DNA of 64,000 nucleotides from Veillonella denticariosi JCM 15641 (GTDB lineage: Bacteria > Bacillota > Negativicutes > Veillonellales > Veillonellaceae): positions 186,001 to 250,000 of the forward strand of contig NZ_PPDB01000001.1 in NCBI RefSeq assembly GCF_002959855.1, written 5' to 3'. Every line of letters starts with the position of its first letter. Within the stretch, counting starts at the first letter, position 1. Both the position numbers and the translations under genes were made by a program. The notes under the pieces are model-generated. The model saw only the letters and a program-made list of their open reading frames with translations, ran no database searches and had not been told where the DNA came from. Shown one piece after another: positions 56,257 to 64,000 of the stretch.

Positions 56257-57033
56257 TTATGATTGTTGTTGTGTTTTGATGGGATTCCACCAATGGCGAC
56301 GATAGGCCTTGATGCCTTCCAATACTGTTTTTGATGCCTGTGCAGCCATATCCTTTGTTGCGGCGGGTATGCCTTCAAGACGATAGTCAATACCTAGTTC
56401 CTTGTATTTGGCAACTCCCATAACGTGGTAGGGGAGACAGTCAACAGCTTGTAAATTCTTCAGGGACCCTAGATAAAATCCTAGCCGATAGTGTCGATCG
56501 GCATTATCCGTAATGGTCGGAACCACTACGTGGCGAACCCAAATCGGAACTTCCACGTCAGCCGTCAATCTGGCAAACCCGAGTATGGGCTCCAACGGTT
56601 TACCCGTTAACCATAGATGCTTGGCTGGATCGATTTCTTTCAGATCTAGGATGACGAGACTGGTGACACTGAGCAATTTACGGTAGGCCACCTCCTGGTG
56701 GGGATCAAAACAGATTCCACTTGTATCTAAACAGGTATGGACGTCTCTTTCACGGAAATATGTGAAAAGCTCGATAACAAAATCAATTTGCATGAGAGCT
56801 TCCCCACCGGTGACGGTGATACCCCCATTAGTATAAAATTGGCGGTTACGTTCGAACTGATCCCATAATTCCTGAACGGTCATGAATTTAGCGTCCGCGC
56901 TGTCCTCATTCCATGTGTCAGGATTATGACAATAAGCACAGCGCATGGGACATCCTTGCAGGAAAACCACCATGCGCATGCCCGGACCGTCAACCGTACC
57001 CATCGTTTCAACCGAATGAATACGTCCTGTCAT
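56257..57033 (-). CDS. pflA: Pyruvate formate-lyase activating enzyme
   Basis: 258 residues; radical SAM enzyme that installs the glycyl radical on PFL. The CPMRCAYC cluster motif (CxxxCxxC, near residue 29) and the GGITVTGGEAL block near 70 are clear. It is the third gene of the leftward unit barrel-radical domain-activase, 12 bp after the radical-domain gene. Confidence 0.95.
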   Translation of the reverse strand: MTGRIHSVETMGTVDGPGMRMVVFLQGCPMRCAYCHNPDTWNEDSADAKFMTVQELWDQFERNRQFYTNGGITVTGGEALMQIDFVIELFTYFRERDVHTCLDTSGICFDPHQEVAYRKLLSVTSLVILDLKEIDPAKHLWLTGKPLEPILGFARLTADVEVPIWVRHVVVPTITDNADRHYRLGFYLGSLKNLQAVDCLPYHVMGVAKYKELGIDYRLEGIPAATKDMAAQASKTVLEGIKAYRRHWWNPIKTQQQS

Positions 57034-57045
57034 AGAAAACCTCGA

Positions 57046-57282
57046 TTAAATACGTTGGTGGAAGGTACGGGAAATAACTTCGTCCTGTTGTTGTTTTGTC
57101 AATTTGTTAAAGTGCACCGCATAACCGGATACACGGATCGTCAATTGAGGATACAACTCAGGATGTTTTTGGGCGTCTAACAATGTTTCGCGAGTAAACA
57201 CGTTGACGTTCAAATGATGGCCGCCCTTTTGGGAATAACCATCCAATAACTCTACCAAGTTATCAACTTGTTGGTTGCTCAT
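57046..57282 (-). CDS. Stand-alone glycyl-radical domain of pyruvate formate-lyase
   Basis: 78 residues matching the last 75 or so residues of [24 protein letters not shown], then [12 protein letters not shown] with the radical-bearing Gly. It has its own AAGGAGGT site and ATG, 75 bp after the large gene's stop. The sequence begins exactly where the neighbouring PFL protein stops matching full-length PFL. It resembles the GrcA/YfiD spare-part protein but is shorter than E. coli GrcA (127 residues) and lies in the pfl unit. Confidence 0.9.
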
Positions 57283-57357
57283 GGGTATAACCTCCTTTCA
57301 ACCAAGACTAACACTCGTATCGATGCCGGTGAAAGCAGTTCGATACCGTGGAAGATA

Positions 57358-59475
57358 TTATTTATCTTCCTCTATAGTAACATTTGGCTCACTGCATGCG
57401 AAATTTGTATTGGCGTTAGGCAGTTGAGAAGGGTCTAACTCAATATCGAAATCGCTCAGGGAAACAAATGTTTCACCAGATTTACCTAATGCGTCCGGAA
57501 TGATGGAGAAAGTATTGGAGATACCGTCAGAGCAATCACGCCATGGCATTTTAGCTACGGATGCCAACGAGGATACGGCGCCGTGAGAGTCACGACCGTG
57601 CATAGGGTTAGCACCCGGAGCGAAAGCTTCACCTGCTTTACGACCGTCCGGAGTCGAACCTGTTGCGGTACCGTATACGACGTTGGAGGTAATTGTTAAC
57701 AAGCTCATAGTAGGAACGGATTGACGATAGGTAGGATGTTTGCGGATCTTGTTCATGAATGTGGAAACAACCATAGCCGCTAAACTATCTACACGGTCAT
57801 CATCGTTACCGTATTTAGGGAAGTCGCCTTCCGTTTCAAAATCGACGGCGATGCCGTTTTCATCTCGAATAGGTTTTACTTTAGCATATTTAATAGCGGA
57901 CAGGGAATCGGCCACGACTGAAAGTCCGGCAATACCGGTAGCGAACCAACGTGTTACCTTGCGGTCATGTAACGCCATTTCCAATTTTTCATAGGCGTAT
58001 TTATCATGCATATAATGGATGATGTTCAAAGCGTTTACATATACGCCAGCAAGCCATTCCATCATGTCGTCGAATTTTTCCCACACTTCGTCAAAGTCGA
58101 GGTATTCCGATGTGATAGGGCGATATTTAGGCCCAATCTGCTTTTTAAGCTTTTCGTCTACGCCGCCGTTGATAGCGTACAGTAAGCATTTTGCAAGGTT
58201 GGAACGAGCTCCGAAGAACTGCATCTCCTTACCGATGCGCATTGGAGATACGCAACATGCGATGGCGTAGTCATCGCCGGAGTTAGGACGCATCAATTCG
58301 TCATTTTCATATTGAATAGAAGATGTGGCGATGGACAACTTCGCGCAGAAACGGCGGAAGCCGATCGGCATGCGAGGGGACCACAGTACGGTGAGATTCG
58401 GTTCCGGTGCAGGTCCCAGGTTTTGCAATGTATGTAAGTAACGGAAGGACATCTTGGAAACCAACGTACGACCGTCGGTACCCATACCGCCGATGGATTC
58501 AGTAGTCCATACAGGATCACCGGTAAACAAGTTATTGTATTCATGGATACGTGCGAAACGTACCATGCGCAATTTCATGATGAAATGGTCTACGAATTCC
58601 TGGATTTGTTCCTCTGTATATGTGCCGTTGCGAAGGTCGCGTTCCGCATAGATATCGAGGAATGTGGAGTTACGTCCGATGGACATAGCCGCACCGTTTT
58701 GTTCCTTAACGGCACCGAGGTAGCCGAAGTAAATCCATTGCATCGCTTCGCGTACATCCTTCGCCGGTTCGGAAATGTCGTAGCCGTAGGAGGCCGCCAT
58801 CTCTTTTAATTCTTTCAGAGAACGGATCTGATCCTTGATTTCTTCGCGATCGCGGATGACATCCTCCAGCATATCACCCATGGTGATAGCAAATTCTTGA
58901 TTTTTTTCTTCGATGAGGTAATCTACGCCGTAAAGAGCGATACGGCGATAGTCGCCGATGATACGCCCACGGCTATACGCATCAGGTAGGCCTGTTACGA
59001 TATGTGCCGTACGAGCTGCACGCATTTCCGGTGTATATACGTCGAATACACCGTCATTGTGAGTCTTGCGATGTGTTTTGAAGAAGGCTTCCGTTTGCGG
59101 ATCCATTTTAAAACCGTATTCTTCGATGGCGGATTTTGCCGTACGCAAACCACCATATGGGAACATAGCGCGTTTTAAAGGTTTGTCCGTTTGTAAACCG
59201 ACGATGGTTTCAAGATCCTTGTCGATATATCCTGGCGCGTGCGCAGTGATGTGGGTTGCCACGGAAGTGTCGGCATCAAGCATGCCGCCTTTTTCGCGTT
59301 CTTCTTCGTAAAGCTTCAGTACCTGGTTCCACAATTTTGTGGTTCGTTCTGTAGGACCGGCAAGAAAGGAGTCGTCCCCTTCATAGGGGATATAATTTCT
59401 CTGAATAAAGTCACGTACGTCAATGGCTTTATCCCACACACCTGTGTTAAAATCTTTCCATGCAGTATGTTGCAT
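57358..59475 (-). CDS. Pyruvate formate-lyase catalytic subunit without glycyl-radical domain
   Basis: 705 residues from the ATG at 59475 (GGAGGTG site); a longer frame upstream has none. It contains the PFL barrel with the catalytic Cys pair (IACCVSPM) and [26 protein letters not shown]. It matches PFL up to [12 protein letters not shown]; then about 35 unrelated, acidic residues follow, ending in EEDK. There is no RVSGYA motif. Converts pyruvate and CoA to acetyl-CoA and formate only if the radical comes from the separate small protein. Confidence 0.92.
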
Positions 59476-60877: not shown

Positions 60878-62701
60878 TCACATGGACATTCCTGCAGCAT
60901 AGTTTTCATAAAGTTTTTTATAGTATCCGTTAAGCGCCATGAGTTCATCATGTGTGCCTTGTTCTACAATGGTGCCGTTCTCTACGACTAGTAGAGAATC
61001 GGCATTTTTTATTGTGGATAAGCGATGGGCGATAACGATACTGGTTCGACCTTTGAGGAGGGTGTTCATCGCTTTTTGAACCTCTATCTCGGTACGGGTA
61101 TCTACGTTAGCCGTTGCCTCATCAAGGATGAGTATACCGGGGTCTGCCAAGAAGGCACGGGCGATTGTAATCAACTGGCGTTGGCCTTGAGATAGATCAT
61201 CGCCACCTCGGTTGAGCACCGTATCATATCCGTTTGGCAAGGTACGGATAAAGTGATCCGCCATGGCAAGTTTTGCTACATATTCGATTTCTTCTCGCGT
61301 AGCATTTGGCTTGCCGTAACCAATATTATCGGCGATAGTGCCTGTGAATATCCAGGCATCTTGTAATACCATGCCCACCGTATTATGTAAGCTTTCACGA
61401 GATACATCGCGAATATCCACGCCATCGATGGTGATGCGGCCATTCATAATGTCGTAGAAGCGCATGATAAGGTTAACCAAGGTGGATTTACCGGCCCCGG
61501 TTGGCCCTACGATAGCCACCATGGAACCGCCAGGGATGTGGATGTTAATATCCTTCATAAACACATTGGACGGTGAATAGCCGAAATCGACATGTTCAAA
61601 ATCGATTGTGCCTGTATGAGTCTGATTACCCGGTTTTGGAGACATCATAGGTGAGTTGCTGGTAACCGTTTCTGTATCAGTTCTGGAGACGTTATCGAAT
61701 AATGTCAGTTCTCCATCGTCAATCTCAGACGGTGTATCAATGACTTCGTAAATACGGCCTAAGGCCGCAGCGGTTTCTTGAAATTTCGTCATAATATAGG
61801 AACTACGGGACAGAGGATCGGATACCTGGCCTACATAAAGGAAGAATGCCTGAATGTCACCGATTGAAATAGAACCGCGTAACACCATGAGTCCACCTTG
61901 AATGGCGACGAGGCAATAGGTGAATTGATTTAGAAATTTTACGAGCGGTTCTACAAGCTGACTGGTAAAGGCAGCGTTTCGCATACTTTTGAATAGGTTG
62001 TTGTTCAATTCATTTATCTGACCCGTTGTAGTCTCTTCTAGACCAAAGGTCTGAATAATCGGTTTGCCTATAACAATTTCTTCAATGCCGCTGTTGAAAG
62101 CTCCCAATGCATTCTGATTTCTAAGATAGATGCGGCGGGCTCGTTTAGATAGCCACGTTAAACATACGATACCGATACATATAATGACGATGATGGATGC
62201 TCCTAAAATAGGGCTGATCCAGAGCATCATAGCCGTGGCGCCGATGATACCGATAATGGCGGATATGAGGCCCGGCACACCTTCACCTATTGTTTCCGCA
62301 ACGGTATCTAAATCAGATGTGAGGCGGCTTAATAGGTCTCCTCGTCGGTGATCGTGAAAGTATTCAATTGGCAATGAATATAAATGAGTACTCATACGTG
62401 TACGTAATGCTAATACTGTTTTGGAACCGATGGAGGCCATCATATATTCGCCGCAGTATGTAAATAATGCATGACCGCTGTAGATGGCGATGAGCCGGAG
62501 AATGATGGTATCTATCGAAGATATAATTGTATTAATATCTTGATCCGTTTTCAAACCGCTGACGATAGCATCTACAATTTTACCGAGTAAAACCGGAGCG
62601 GAGACTTCAAACATGGCTGCAGCGATAAGCGCTAAGACGAGTAGAGATAGCCAGCCCCATTGGCTCTTAGAATCGATCAGGAAGCGACGCAATGGATTCA
62701 T
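60878..62701 (-). CDS. ABC exporter half-transporter (canonical NBD)
   Basis: 607 residues: six-helix TMD (1-310) and NBD with Walker A GPTGAGKST, signature LSQGQRQLITIARAF and Walker B ILILDEATANVD with catalytic Glu. It overlaps the next gene (ATGA), so the two should form a heterodimeric exporter of the TM287/288 or LmrCD type. Substrate unknown (lipid or drug likely). Confidence 0.92.
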   Translation of the reverse strand: MNPLRRFLIDSKSQWGWLSLLVLALIAAAMFEVSAPVLLGKIVDAIVSGLKTDQDINTIISSIDTIILRLIAIYSGHALFTYCGEYMMASIGSKTVLALRTRMSTHLYSLPIEYFHDHRRGDLLSRLTSDLDTVAETIGEGVPGLISAIIGIIGATAMMLWISPILGASIIVIICIGIVCLTWLSKRARRIYLRNQNALGAFNSGIEEIVIGKPIIQTFGLEETTTGQINELNNNLFKSMRNAAFTSQLVEPLVKFLNQFTYCLVAIQGGLMVLRGSISIGDIQAFFLYVGQVSDPLSRSSYIMTKFQETAAALGRIYEVIDTPSEIDDGELTLFDNVSRTDTETVTSNSPMMSPKPGNQTHTGTIDFEHVDFGYSPSNVFMKDINIHIPGGSMVAIVGPTGAGKSTLVNLIMRFYDIMNGRITIDGVDIRDVSRESLHNTVGMVLQDAWIFTGTIADNIGYGKPNATREEIEYVAKLAMADHFIRTLPNGYDTVLNRGGDDLSQGQRQLITIARAFLADPGILILDEATANVDTRTEIEVQKAMNTLLKGRTSIVIAHRLSTIKNADSLLVVENGTIVEQGTHDELMALNGYYKKLYENYAAGMSM

Positions 62702-64000
62702 GCTGTCACCTCCTGAGATGCTAAAATCTGTTGATATACAGTAGATGTACCTGCTAGTTCATCATGTGTGCCATAGCCTGCAACTTGACCTCGGTTGATG
62801 ATTAAGATGTGGTCCGCTTTTTTGGCAGCGCTTACCTTTTGTTCTACTGAGATAAGTGCGGGATGATTGTCCTTTTGTAACTCTTCATGTAATGCTGTTC
62901 GAACAGCGCGCTCCGTAGTGTCATCGAGGGCGGAGAAACTATCATCGAAAATAAACAGATCTGGCTTGCGGACAAGGGCTCTGGCCATAGCAAGACGCTG
63001 GCGTTGGCCACCGGATAGATTTGTATCGCCTTGTGACACTATATACTGGTAACCACCTTCAAGGCGACTGATAAATTCGTCCGCCTTAGATAATCGGCAT
63101 GCATTTTCTATATCTTGAATTGAAATATCTTGGTCTGGTGCGGCACCGTAACGTACATTCATATCGATAGTGCCTGTAAATAAGTAGGCTGTTTGCGGCA
63201 CATAACCGATACGTGCACGCAAGTCGTCTACATTCCACTGGTAGATGGATTTACCTTTGAAGAGAATATCTCCGGATTCAATGGAGAATAGGCGAGGAAT
63301 GAGATTTGTAATCGTACTTTTACCTGAACCGATATCGCCCATGATGGCTAATGTTTCACCGTGATGAACGGTAAAGGAAATATTTTCTAGCGCAGGTGAT
63401 TCCGCATTATCGTAGCGGAACGTAACATTGCGGAACTCGAGCAATGGTGTATCCTGGGTTGCGGTTGCGGTTGCGGTTGCGGTTGCGGTTGCGGTTGCGG
63501 TTGCGGTTGCGGTTGATGGGGGTGTCTCATAACTTTGTCGCGTATGTTGCATCGATTTTGAGGTATTAGATTTTTCATCATCAGTGTGATAGGGCTCTGG
63601 AAATGTATTCGAATTTTCGTGTTCTAACAACTCTCGAATACGGGTATAGCATACGATAGCTTCAGGAATATCGATGGTTACGAAAATAGCCATGAGCATA
63701 CTCAATAAAATGAGGTTGGCGTATTCGATAACGGCCATGATATCACCTACCTGCAGGGAGCCCATGCTTACGTTGTAGCCTCCGAGCCATAGGATGGCTA
63801 CGGTACTCATATTAAACAGGATCAATATGGTAGGTAAACCTATGGCAAAGGTTTGGCGCAATCGTTTGTTGAGTTGTGCTGTTTCTGTAAAAATACAGAT
63901 TTCTTTATCGTTCTCATAGGTCCGTCTGTTGAAAGCTCGTATGACAGGCATGCCCACAATATGATCGCGTACCATGTCTGTAATATCATCTAATTTTATC
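62698..64000 (-). CDS. ABC exporter half-transporter (degenerate NBD), partial
   Basis: Truncated by the window end; the frame stays open to base 64000. It has the C-terminal half of the TMD, a Thr-Ala repeat linker (about 20 residues), then the NBD: Walker A GDIGSGKST, signature LSGGQRQRLAMARAL, Walker B LFIFDDSFSALD with Asp in place of the catalytic Glu. This is the usual asymmetry of heterodimeric exporters: the partner has the active site. The linker comes from the (GGTTGC)9 repeat. Confidence 0.88.
   Translation of the reverse strand, partial: IKLDDITDMVRDHIVGMPVIRAFNRRTYENDKEICIFTETAQLNKRLRQTFAIGLPTILILFNMSTVAILWLGGYNVSMGSLQVGDIMAVIEYANLILLSMLMAIFVTIDIPEAIVCYTRIRELLEHENSNTFPEPYHTDDEKSNTSKSMQHTRQSYETPPSTATATATATATATATATATQDTPLLEFRNVTFRYDNAESPALENISFTVHHGETLAIMGDIGSGKSTITNLIPRLFSIESGDILFKGKSIYQWNVDDLRARIGYVPQTAYLFTGTIDMNVRYGAAPDQDISIQDIENACRLSKADEFISRLEGGYQYIVSQGDTNLSGGQRQRLAMARALVRKPDLFIFDDSFSALDDTTERAVRTALHEELQKDNHPALISVEQKVSAAKKADHILIINRGQVAGYGTHDELAGTSTVYQQILASQEVTA
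63457..63515. repeat. Hexanucleotide tandem repeat (GGTTGC)9
   Basis: Nine perfect GGTTGC units (63457-63510) plus five bases. On the coding minus strand they make alternating Thr-Ala. Changes in copy number keep the frame, so the linker would vary in length without turning the gene off. Confidence 0.9.

Follow-up and report, generated by a model that had tools for sequence, protein, structure and literature searches.

Glycyl radical enzymes are prone to cleavage of the backbone by oxygen, and Escherichia coli keeps a spare part for the repair of this damage. Small partner proteins of enzymes of this type are the beta and gamma subunits of benzylsuccinate synthase and the gamma subunit of 4-hydroxyphenylacetate decarboxylase; in both systems it is the large chain that keeps the radical. 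These small partners carry Fe-S clusters (PMC11194802).

Pyruvate formate-lyase (PFL) of E. coli, PflB (TIGR01255; PDB entries 1h16 and 2pfl), is one chain of 759 residues with a barrel, a Cys pair and an RVSGYA loop, and is served by an activase. GrcA/YfiD of the same organism (TIGR04365; PDB entry 6owr) is a radical domain encoded on its own and completes PFL in trans. This protein has 127 residues, of which the disordered N-terminal half aids binding, and it repairs a PFL that is otherwise complete (PMC8683613). A truncated E. coli PFL (residues 1-695) together with YfiD was reported to show wild-type activity once activated; binding of the two was undetected by ITC, and activation was down 32-fold (PMC8683613). 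Binding in E. coli was helped by residues 696-733 of the cleaved PFL and by residues 1-60 of YfiD (PMC8683613).

Here we describe a PFL locus in a window of 64,000 nucleotides from Veillonella denticariosi JCM 15641, the whole stretch of DNA that was analysed. The original prediction, made from the letters and the open reading frames, was that PFL is divided at this locus into a barrel protein and a separate glycyl-radical protein, which looked like a two-subunit enzyme rather than a broken gene. In a number of gut anaerobes, the spare part seems to have become the only part.

Organisation of the locus

The genes for the large protein, the small protein and the activase PflA follow one another on the minus strand, the last two adjoining (Table 1). 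The large protein exceeded the cut-off of TIGR01255 (formate C-acetyltransferase) with 1092.6 against 994.2 bits and was matched along model positions 1-664 of 744, and the small protein covers positions 664-743 of the same model; the split is therefore exact. The RVSGYA motif was absent from the large protein and the radical glycine was found in the small protein only. The description given originally, of a 705-residue barrel with the Cys pair and without RVSGYA, a 78-residue neighbour with its own ribosome-binding site that is the missing radical domain, and PflA encoded directly after it (269.9 bits against a TIGR02493 cut-off of 231.75), was borne out in all these elements. In the window, the large and small genes are in the same frame, separated by TAA and TGA.

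Table 1. Features of the split PFL locus (positions in the window)
Feature	Position	Strand	Basis
Large subunit, PFL barrel, 705 aa	57358..59475	-	TIGR01255; PF02901 E 1.3e-220
Small subunit, glycyl-radical protein, 78 aa, GrcA3 type	57046..57282	-	NF038360; PF01228 E 4.3e-22
PFL-activating enzyme PflA (radical SAM)	56257..57033	-	TIGR02493, 269.9 bits
Catalytic Cys pair C407-C408 (E. coli C418-C419)	58252..58257	-	sequence; invariant in 47/47 large subunits aligned
Radical glycine G53 in RVSGYA	57124..57126	-	sequence; invariant in 33/33 small subunits aligned
Intergenic gap between large and small genes, 75 nt	57283..57357	-	sequence
Ribosome-binding site GAAAGGAGG of small gene	57291..57299	-	sequence
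Extra tail of large subunit, residues 666-705	57361..57480	-	beyond PFL homology
Tail Cys C694 of AC-x2-P-N motif	57394..57396	-	sequence
RNA hairpin in gap, constant loop UUUCACC	57317..57346	-	covariation in 10 distinct Veillonella sequences

The locus shares with E. coli PflB the barrel, Cys pair, RVSGYA loop and activase, at 56-58% identity over the aligned structure, but it employs two chains instead of one, with 40 extra residues ending the large one. The small protein is a member of the family of autonomous glycyl radical cofactors GrcA3 (NF038360), with a full-length match over the cut-off (165.4 vs 158 bits, positions 2-78 of 78), and remained under that of GrcA/YfiD (TIGR04365; 96.9 vs 170 bits, positions 64-125 of 126 only). 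Unlike GrcA/YfiD, it has no long N-terminal extension, does not stand beside a full-length PFL and is the sole source of the radical for PFL.

Profile searches of the genome (1.98 Mb, 99.99% complete) found no second PFL: its one PF02901 match is the large gene, which has no radical domain. PF01228 had three matches, namely the large gene, the small gene and one further open frame, which reads as the anaerobic ribonucleotide reductase NrdD and is followed by an NrdG-like ORF. A hidden full-length PFL, for which a search of the rest of the genome had been proposed at the outset, was rejected on the grounds of these two profiles.

The closest solved chains to the large subunit are those of PDB entries 38la and 38lb ("Formate acetyltransferase"), both without the radical domain; the window barrel gave 1122.6 and 1074.1 bits for them, respectively, versus 974.1 for E. 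coli PFL. Entry 38lb has a long tail after the barrel, and 38la ends with SLGKED, like the SLGKDD of a tail-less split locus considered below (L212). No chain of the two entries matched the window small protein at E 0.001. Since NCBIfam already covers the small protein and the PDB contains large chains without a radical domain, split PFLs are known to others and the split is not wholly new; the two-subunit reading stands, but the peculiarity of the arrangement to the window does not. Among the titles and abstract starts listed for open-licence PMC papers, none was on a naturally split PFL or on GrcA3, which is weak evidence of absence.

Conservation and occurrence of the split

The split is common to 25 of the 28 genomes of the window's family (Veillonellaceae, going by the nearest named records), as judged from a small protein over the GrcA3 cut-off, and all 25 genomes with such a protein among the 380 of the class belong to this family. 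Two of the remaining three, G365 (same genus as the window) and G353, have a full-length PFL, and the third, G375, yielded only a match that corresponds to NrdD. An 82-aa frame in another genome (G087), considered as a second split lineage of the class, was dropped as a cut gene, with its match at the contig end.

Mean distances among nine sequences of the family gave dN/dS of 0.046 in the barrel and 0.049 in the small protein, against 0.21 in the tail; 4, 3 and 17 of the 36 pairs, respectively, were saturated in dS. Both PFL pieces are under strong purifying selection. The gap between them varied from 1 to 174 nt in the nine sequences, with a stop and then ATG within 2 nt in four, and from 1 to 344 nt over 76 related loci and the window; frames 0, 1 and 2 were represented by 23, 29 and 25 of these 77.

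A scan of the collection with the small protein showed that at least 566 stretches encode a relative, of which the 80 best loci were retained. They came from Veillonella, many Lachnospiraceae and Oscillospiraceae, Erysipelotrichaceae, a Tissierellia bin and a spirochaete bin. The small protein was an ORF of its own in 79 of these best 80 of at least 566 and was fused in the other one (L089), and an ORF of more than 120 aa with C-x3-C-x2-C ended downstream in 73 of the same 80. Of the 291 Clostridia genomes sampled evenly around G389 (itself a split genome, as is G409), at least 16 had a protein over the GrcA3 cut-off and two more were just under it, the frame standing alone in all of these (78-106 aa); among the matches listed, the remaining frames had at least 191 aa. 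The survey of related genomes suggested in the beginning has thus recovered the same arrangement both in the family and beyond it.

Fifty genomes with split loci were searched for their PFL complement. The split PFL1 was the only one in 45, many of these genomes being draft bins and two having it as contig fragments; four also encoded a full-length PFL1 (G383, G385, G389 and, in two pieces, G403), and G401 had the fused form.

Tail and third protein

The 40 residues that end the large subunit had been noticed as a new acidic tail. Acidic they are (net charge -8 by hand count), but not merely so: the tail appears to be one form of a Cys module, which one in three of the relatives encodes as a third protein of its own. 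In the window it contains the motif AC-x2-P-[NT], with the upstream Cys of most third proteins missing (NTNFAC).

Tails were compared using 145 loci, which comprised 100 split ones (including a few repeats of one genome: L066/L150 and probably L083/L203 and L111/L200), 42 fused ones and three (L101, L213 and L214) that were left out, with the large subunit not in view. In the 100 split loci they extended 2-51 residues past LGK, and all were acidic (net -2 to -13). A Cys was found in the tail in 50 out of 52 loci with a gap below 130 nt and in one out of 25 with a longer gap. In the long gaps there is a third ORF, about 60-85 residues long (e.g. L042:4727-4978), the N-terminal half of which resembles the helix and strand that open the radical domain (e.g. 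IDELVKMIDSFMENNGGHMNITV), while its C-terminal half bears a motif like D-C-x(4-5)-AC-x2-P-T-L-x-E-G-L-D, as seen in Cys tails. An HMM built from 15 third proteins detected them in 34 loci at E <0.001 (among them L042, L044, L048-L050, L052, L053, L056, L057, L059, L060 and L064); a regular expression recovered 13 loci, and the HMM count is used here. The same HMM also matched the radical proteins that 104 loci encode separately (E 3.8e-7 to 0.018) and, in four fused PFLs, the opening part of the radical domain (E 0.0003 to 0.0095), and hhalign of third proteins with small subunits gave 95.8% and E 8.1e-9 over 31 columns. The Cys and Pro equivalent to those of the tail motif were invariant in 26 aligned third proteins. 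The N-terminal half of the third protein is homologous to the radical domain.

The tail Cys and the third gene did not occur together in any of the 100 split loci: 64 had a tail Cys, 33 the third gene and three (L041, L208 and L212) neither, where the tail-Cys class means any Cys in the tail and was defined after the data had been seen, and the strict motif was present in 50 of the 100. In the genomes of the three loci with neither, the third-protein profile matched the radical domain only. The Cys module thus goes with the split nearly always but is not indispensable everywhere, as these three split loci are without it. The third protein (E up to 1e-8) was present in eight of the 291 Clostridia genomes, all among the 18 split ones (Fisher 3.8e-11, with genomes treated as independent), and seven of the ten split genomes without it had a Cys tail.

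On a tree of 102 barrels, which after removal of identical ones included 60 with the tail form, 33 with the third gene, two with neither and one fused, we counted at least four switches between the tail and third-gene forms by well-supported branches and 11 by parsimony. The dN/dS ratio of third proteins was about 0.03-0.18 in the seven pairs, out of 11, in which dS could be measured (all dS >1), and by this measure selection acts on the third proteins. Upstream of the third gene, a loosely defined ribosome-site motif was located in 30 of 34 loci, a count made without a control. Because of mutual exclusion, form switching and selection, the Cys tail and the third protein look like a single component that is encoded in two ways. 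In L097, and seemingly also in L199, the third gene is found after the small gene rather than before it.

None of the 26 third proteins had a Pfam match over the cut-offs, and in NCBIfam only a weak cross-match to GrcA3 was obtained for 15 of the 26 (best E 5.3e-5, far below the cut-off); NF038360 names the small protein only. A search of the PDB with the third-protein profile returned chance-like matches only, mostly to designed proteins. The Cys module, as tail or as third protein, thus appears to be new and absent from Pfam and NCBIfam. It also differs from the small partners of benzylsuccinate synthase and 4-hydroxyphenylacetate decarboxylase: it has about two Cys and starts like half a radical domain.

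Evolutionary history of the split

For the trees, identical barrels were removed and two short ones (L041 and L206) were left out; the fused PFLs had been chosen for their resemblance to GrcA3 and are therefore an uneven sample. In the free tree of 80 barrels, 37 of the 38 split rows and the fused L089 made up one group (SH-aLRT 99), with the tail-less split L212 outside. A second independent split, represented by L212, was considered and dropped, as all 38 splits held together with L089 gave a higher likelihood (p-AU 0.875); a single split clade excluding L089 was likewise not rejected (p 0.151). Since these tests do not reject the unity of the split clade, a single origin of the split, with one re-fusion, is compatible with the data.

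Within the split group, L089:2910-5234 is a fused PFL of 774 codons with a Cys linker, TCGCEEVTCAV, between the barrel and the radical domain, as a re-fusion of a split PFL would have. Q, K and D at three sites, typical of split radical domains, were also found in L212 and L089. L212:3420-3730 has a minimal form of the split, in which the barrel ends with SLGKDD and is followed by a stop, a ribosome-binding site and the small gene, with neither tail nor third protein.

The splits of the window's family were placed among Clostridia (a set of 26 rows, support 97), and the full-length PFLs of G365 and G353 clustered with those of the same order (support 100). These positions suggest that the Veillonella split PFL was probably gained horizontally and replaced a full-length PFL. 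Barrel position 430 (window 58186-58188) is Cys in 98% of split barrels and mostly Ala (32 of 41) in fused PFLs.

Predicted structure

Structure prediction had been put forward as a check on whether the two proteins dock like an intact PFL. For the read-through model, the window pair was joined artificially in one chain and modelled with an alignment of 46 rows without naturally fused PFLs; its mean pLDDT was 68.5 and its pTM 0.69, with pLDDT of about 44-73 in the radical part, about 24-41 in the tail and below 50 in the active-site loop 404-421. VIA-align superposed residues 1-809 of this model onto residues 5-759 of E. coli PFL (2pfl) with Z of 41.6 and rmsd of 5.1 over 679 residues, and Foldseek gave TM of 0.72 and rmsd of 7.9 versus the same structure. 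The joined chain aligns along the whole of 2pfl and into the native radical domain, but the model is only fair and the chains were joined; the alignment is hence a check of plausibility. The large subunit modelled alone had pLDDT of 73.5, with residues 650-705 below 50.

Proposed mechanism

We consider it highly probable that the locus encodes an obligate two-subunit PFL with the radical in trans, the tail being one form of the Cys module. That the radical acts in trans is suggested because the split is conserved, purifying selection is seen and no full-length PFL exists in the genome. The large protein would supply the barrel, the substrate site and the Cys pair, and the 78-residue GrcA3-type protein the helix, the barrel strand and the glycyl loop. 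The small protein would dock at the site taken by the C-terminal domain in an ordinary PFL and, in the complex, would get its radical from PflA; catalysis would proceed in trans and oxygen damage would fall on a cheap and replaceable part of 9 kDa. If the radical always acts in trans, the costly barrel survives oxygen with only the 9-kDa protein lost, and the locus offers a natural two-component system that allows binding, activation and catalysis to be separated, for which engineered truncations were needed in E. coli.

Both elements that help binding in E. coli are missing from the natural split: the barrel homology stops around position 680 of the E. coli enzyme, and the small protein lacks a long N-terminal extension. 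By analogy with the binding and activation of E. coli PFL 1-695 and YfiD, a simple two-piece PFL may assemble poorly. The strand GGQHLNVNV at residues 701-709 of E. coli PFL is within the 696-733 element, and the third protein resembles this stretch and adds the Cys motif; on this basis the module is proposed as a recognition or gating element. It would aid or gate docking of the radical subunit, perhaps as a redox gate, in place of the E. coli elements (PFL 696-733 and the YfiD N-terminus). The Cys module is thus a concrete and testable candidate for the control of assembly of split PFLs.

Several other explanations have to be weighed against an obligate two-subunit PFL. The two genes might be one broken or wrongly sequenced gene, in which a stop or frameshift divides a single protein that is possibly joined by readthrough or frameshifting, and the common frame of the window genes, with TAA and TGA as the sole stops between them, would suit this. 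A sequencing error is unlikely because the split is common to 25 of 28 family genomes, and it recurs in 79 of the best 80 of at least 566 related loci. Gap lengths from 1 to 344 nt with all three frames represented, the ribosome-binding site owned by the small gene and dN/dS of about 0.05 for both genes likewise oppose a pseudogene or a frameshift, so that we rejected this explanation as having next to no chance of being true; the original view of a two-subunit enzyme instead of a broken gene is upheld by the same evidence together with the lack of a full-length PFL. The small protein could also serve, as in E. coli, only to repair PFL, with a full-length PFL elsewhere doing the main work. Both its name and its sequence do place it in the GrcA group, and four of the 50 split-locus genomes encode a full-length PFL1 as well; however, the nearly complete window genome has a single PFL gene that lacks the domain, 45 of the 50 genomes (many of them draft bins) are split-only, and 25 of 28 in the family have the split, which makes such a role very improbable.

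A further possibility accepts the working two-subunit PFL and regards the tail and the third protein as functionless leftovers of an old radical domain. The homology of the N-terminal half of the third protein to the radical domain, as obtained with hhalign, agrees with this, as do the three split loci that manage without the module and the diverged, partly degenerate tails, only half of which bear the strict motif. Mere remnants would be hard to reconcile with the exclusion of tail Cys and third gene (none of 100 loci with both, three with neither), with the switches between the forms, with the low dN/dS of third proteins in seven of 11 pairs (dS >1) and with the Cys and Pro invariant in 26 of them, and we regard this possibility as unlikely. 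Returning to a two-subunit PFL with a working module, we propose more tentatively, as an idea somewhat less probable than an even chance, that split PFL is a barrel plus two small functions, a radical subunit and a Cys placeholder. This descendant of the radical domain, in which the helix and strand survive, the glycyl loop is gone and the Cys motif has been added, would either fill the vacant slot or sense oxygen by its Cys pair and admit the radical subunit only under reducing conditions; in the window it would have shrunk to the tail of the large subunit. If true, the placeholder system would embody, in an evolved and permanent form, a condition that arises in E. coli PFL only through cleavage by oxygen.

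Gap hairpin and other signals

The gap contains an RNA hairpin (Table 1) with 85.6% of cells paired in 10 distinct sequences, a value reached in none of 500 shuffles, and six of the nine pairs of its stem have changed on both sides. The folding energy of the gap region is a weak sign (z -1.94, with eight of 200 shuffles as stable), and so the claim of a hairpin rests on covariation. There is one copy in the genome. The ribosome-binding site of the small gene follows 17 nt after the hairpin, and its UGAAAG is complementary to CUUUCA on the loop side; control of small-subunit translation by the hairpin would be a guess. The longer gap of L216 (174 nt) has a further copy of GCTTTCACC.

In the 15 loci searched, no Rfam family reached its gathering score in the vicinity of the gaps, and one SRP RNA was matched elsewhere in L057; a sub-threshold match on the window tail was taken as chance. 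Promoter-like sites around the genes were not in excess over shuffles, and five terminator-like sites were counted against a shuffle mean of 3.5, none of them on the minus strand. Elsewhere in the window, an ABC-transporter-like ORF (62698-63975, minus strand) includes an in-frame run of alternating Thr-Ala, perhaps a repeat of variable length.
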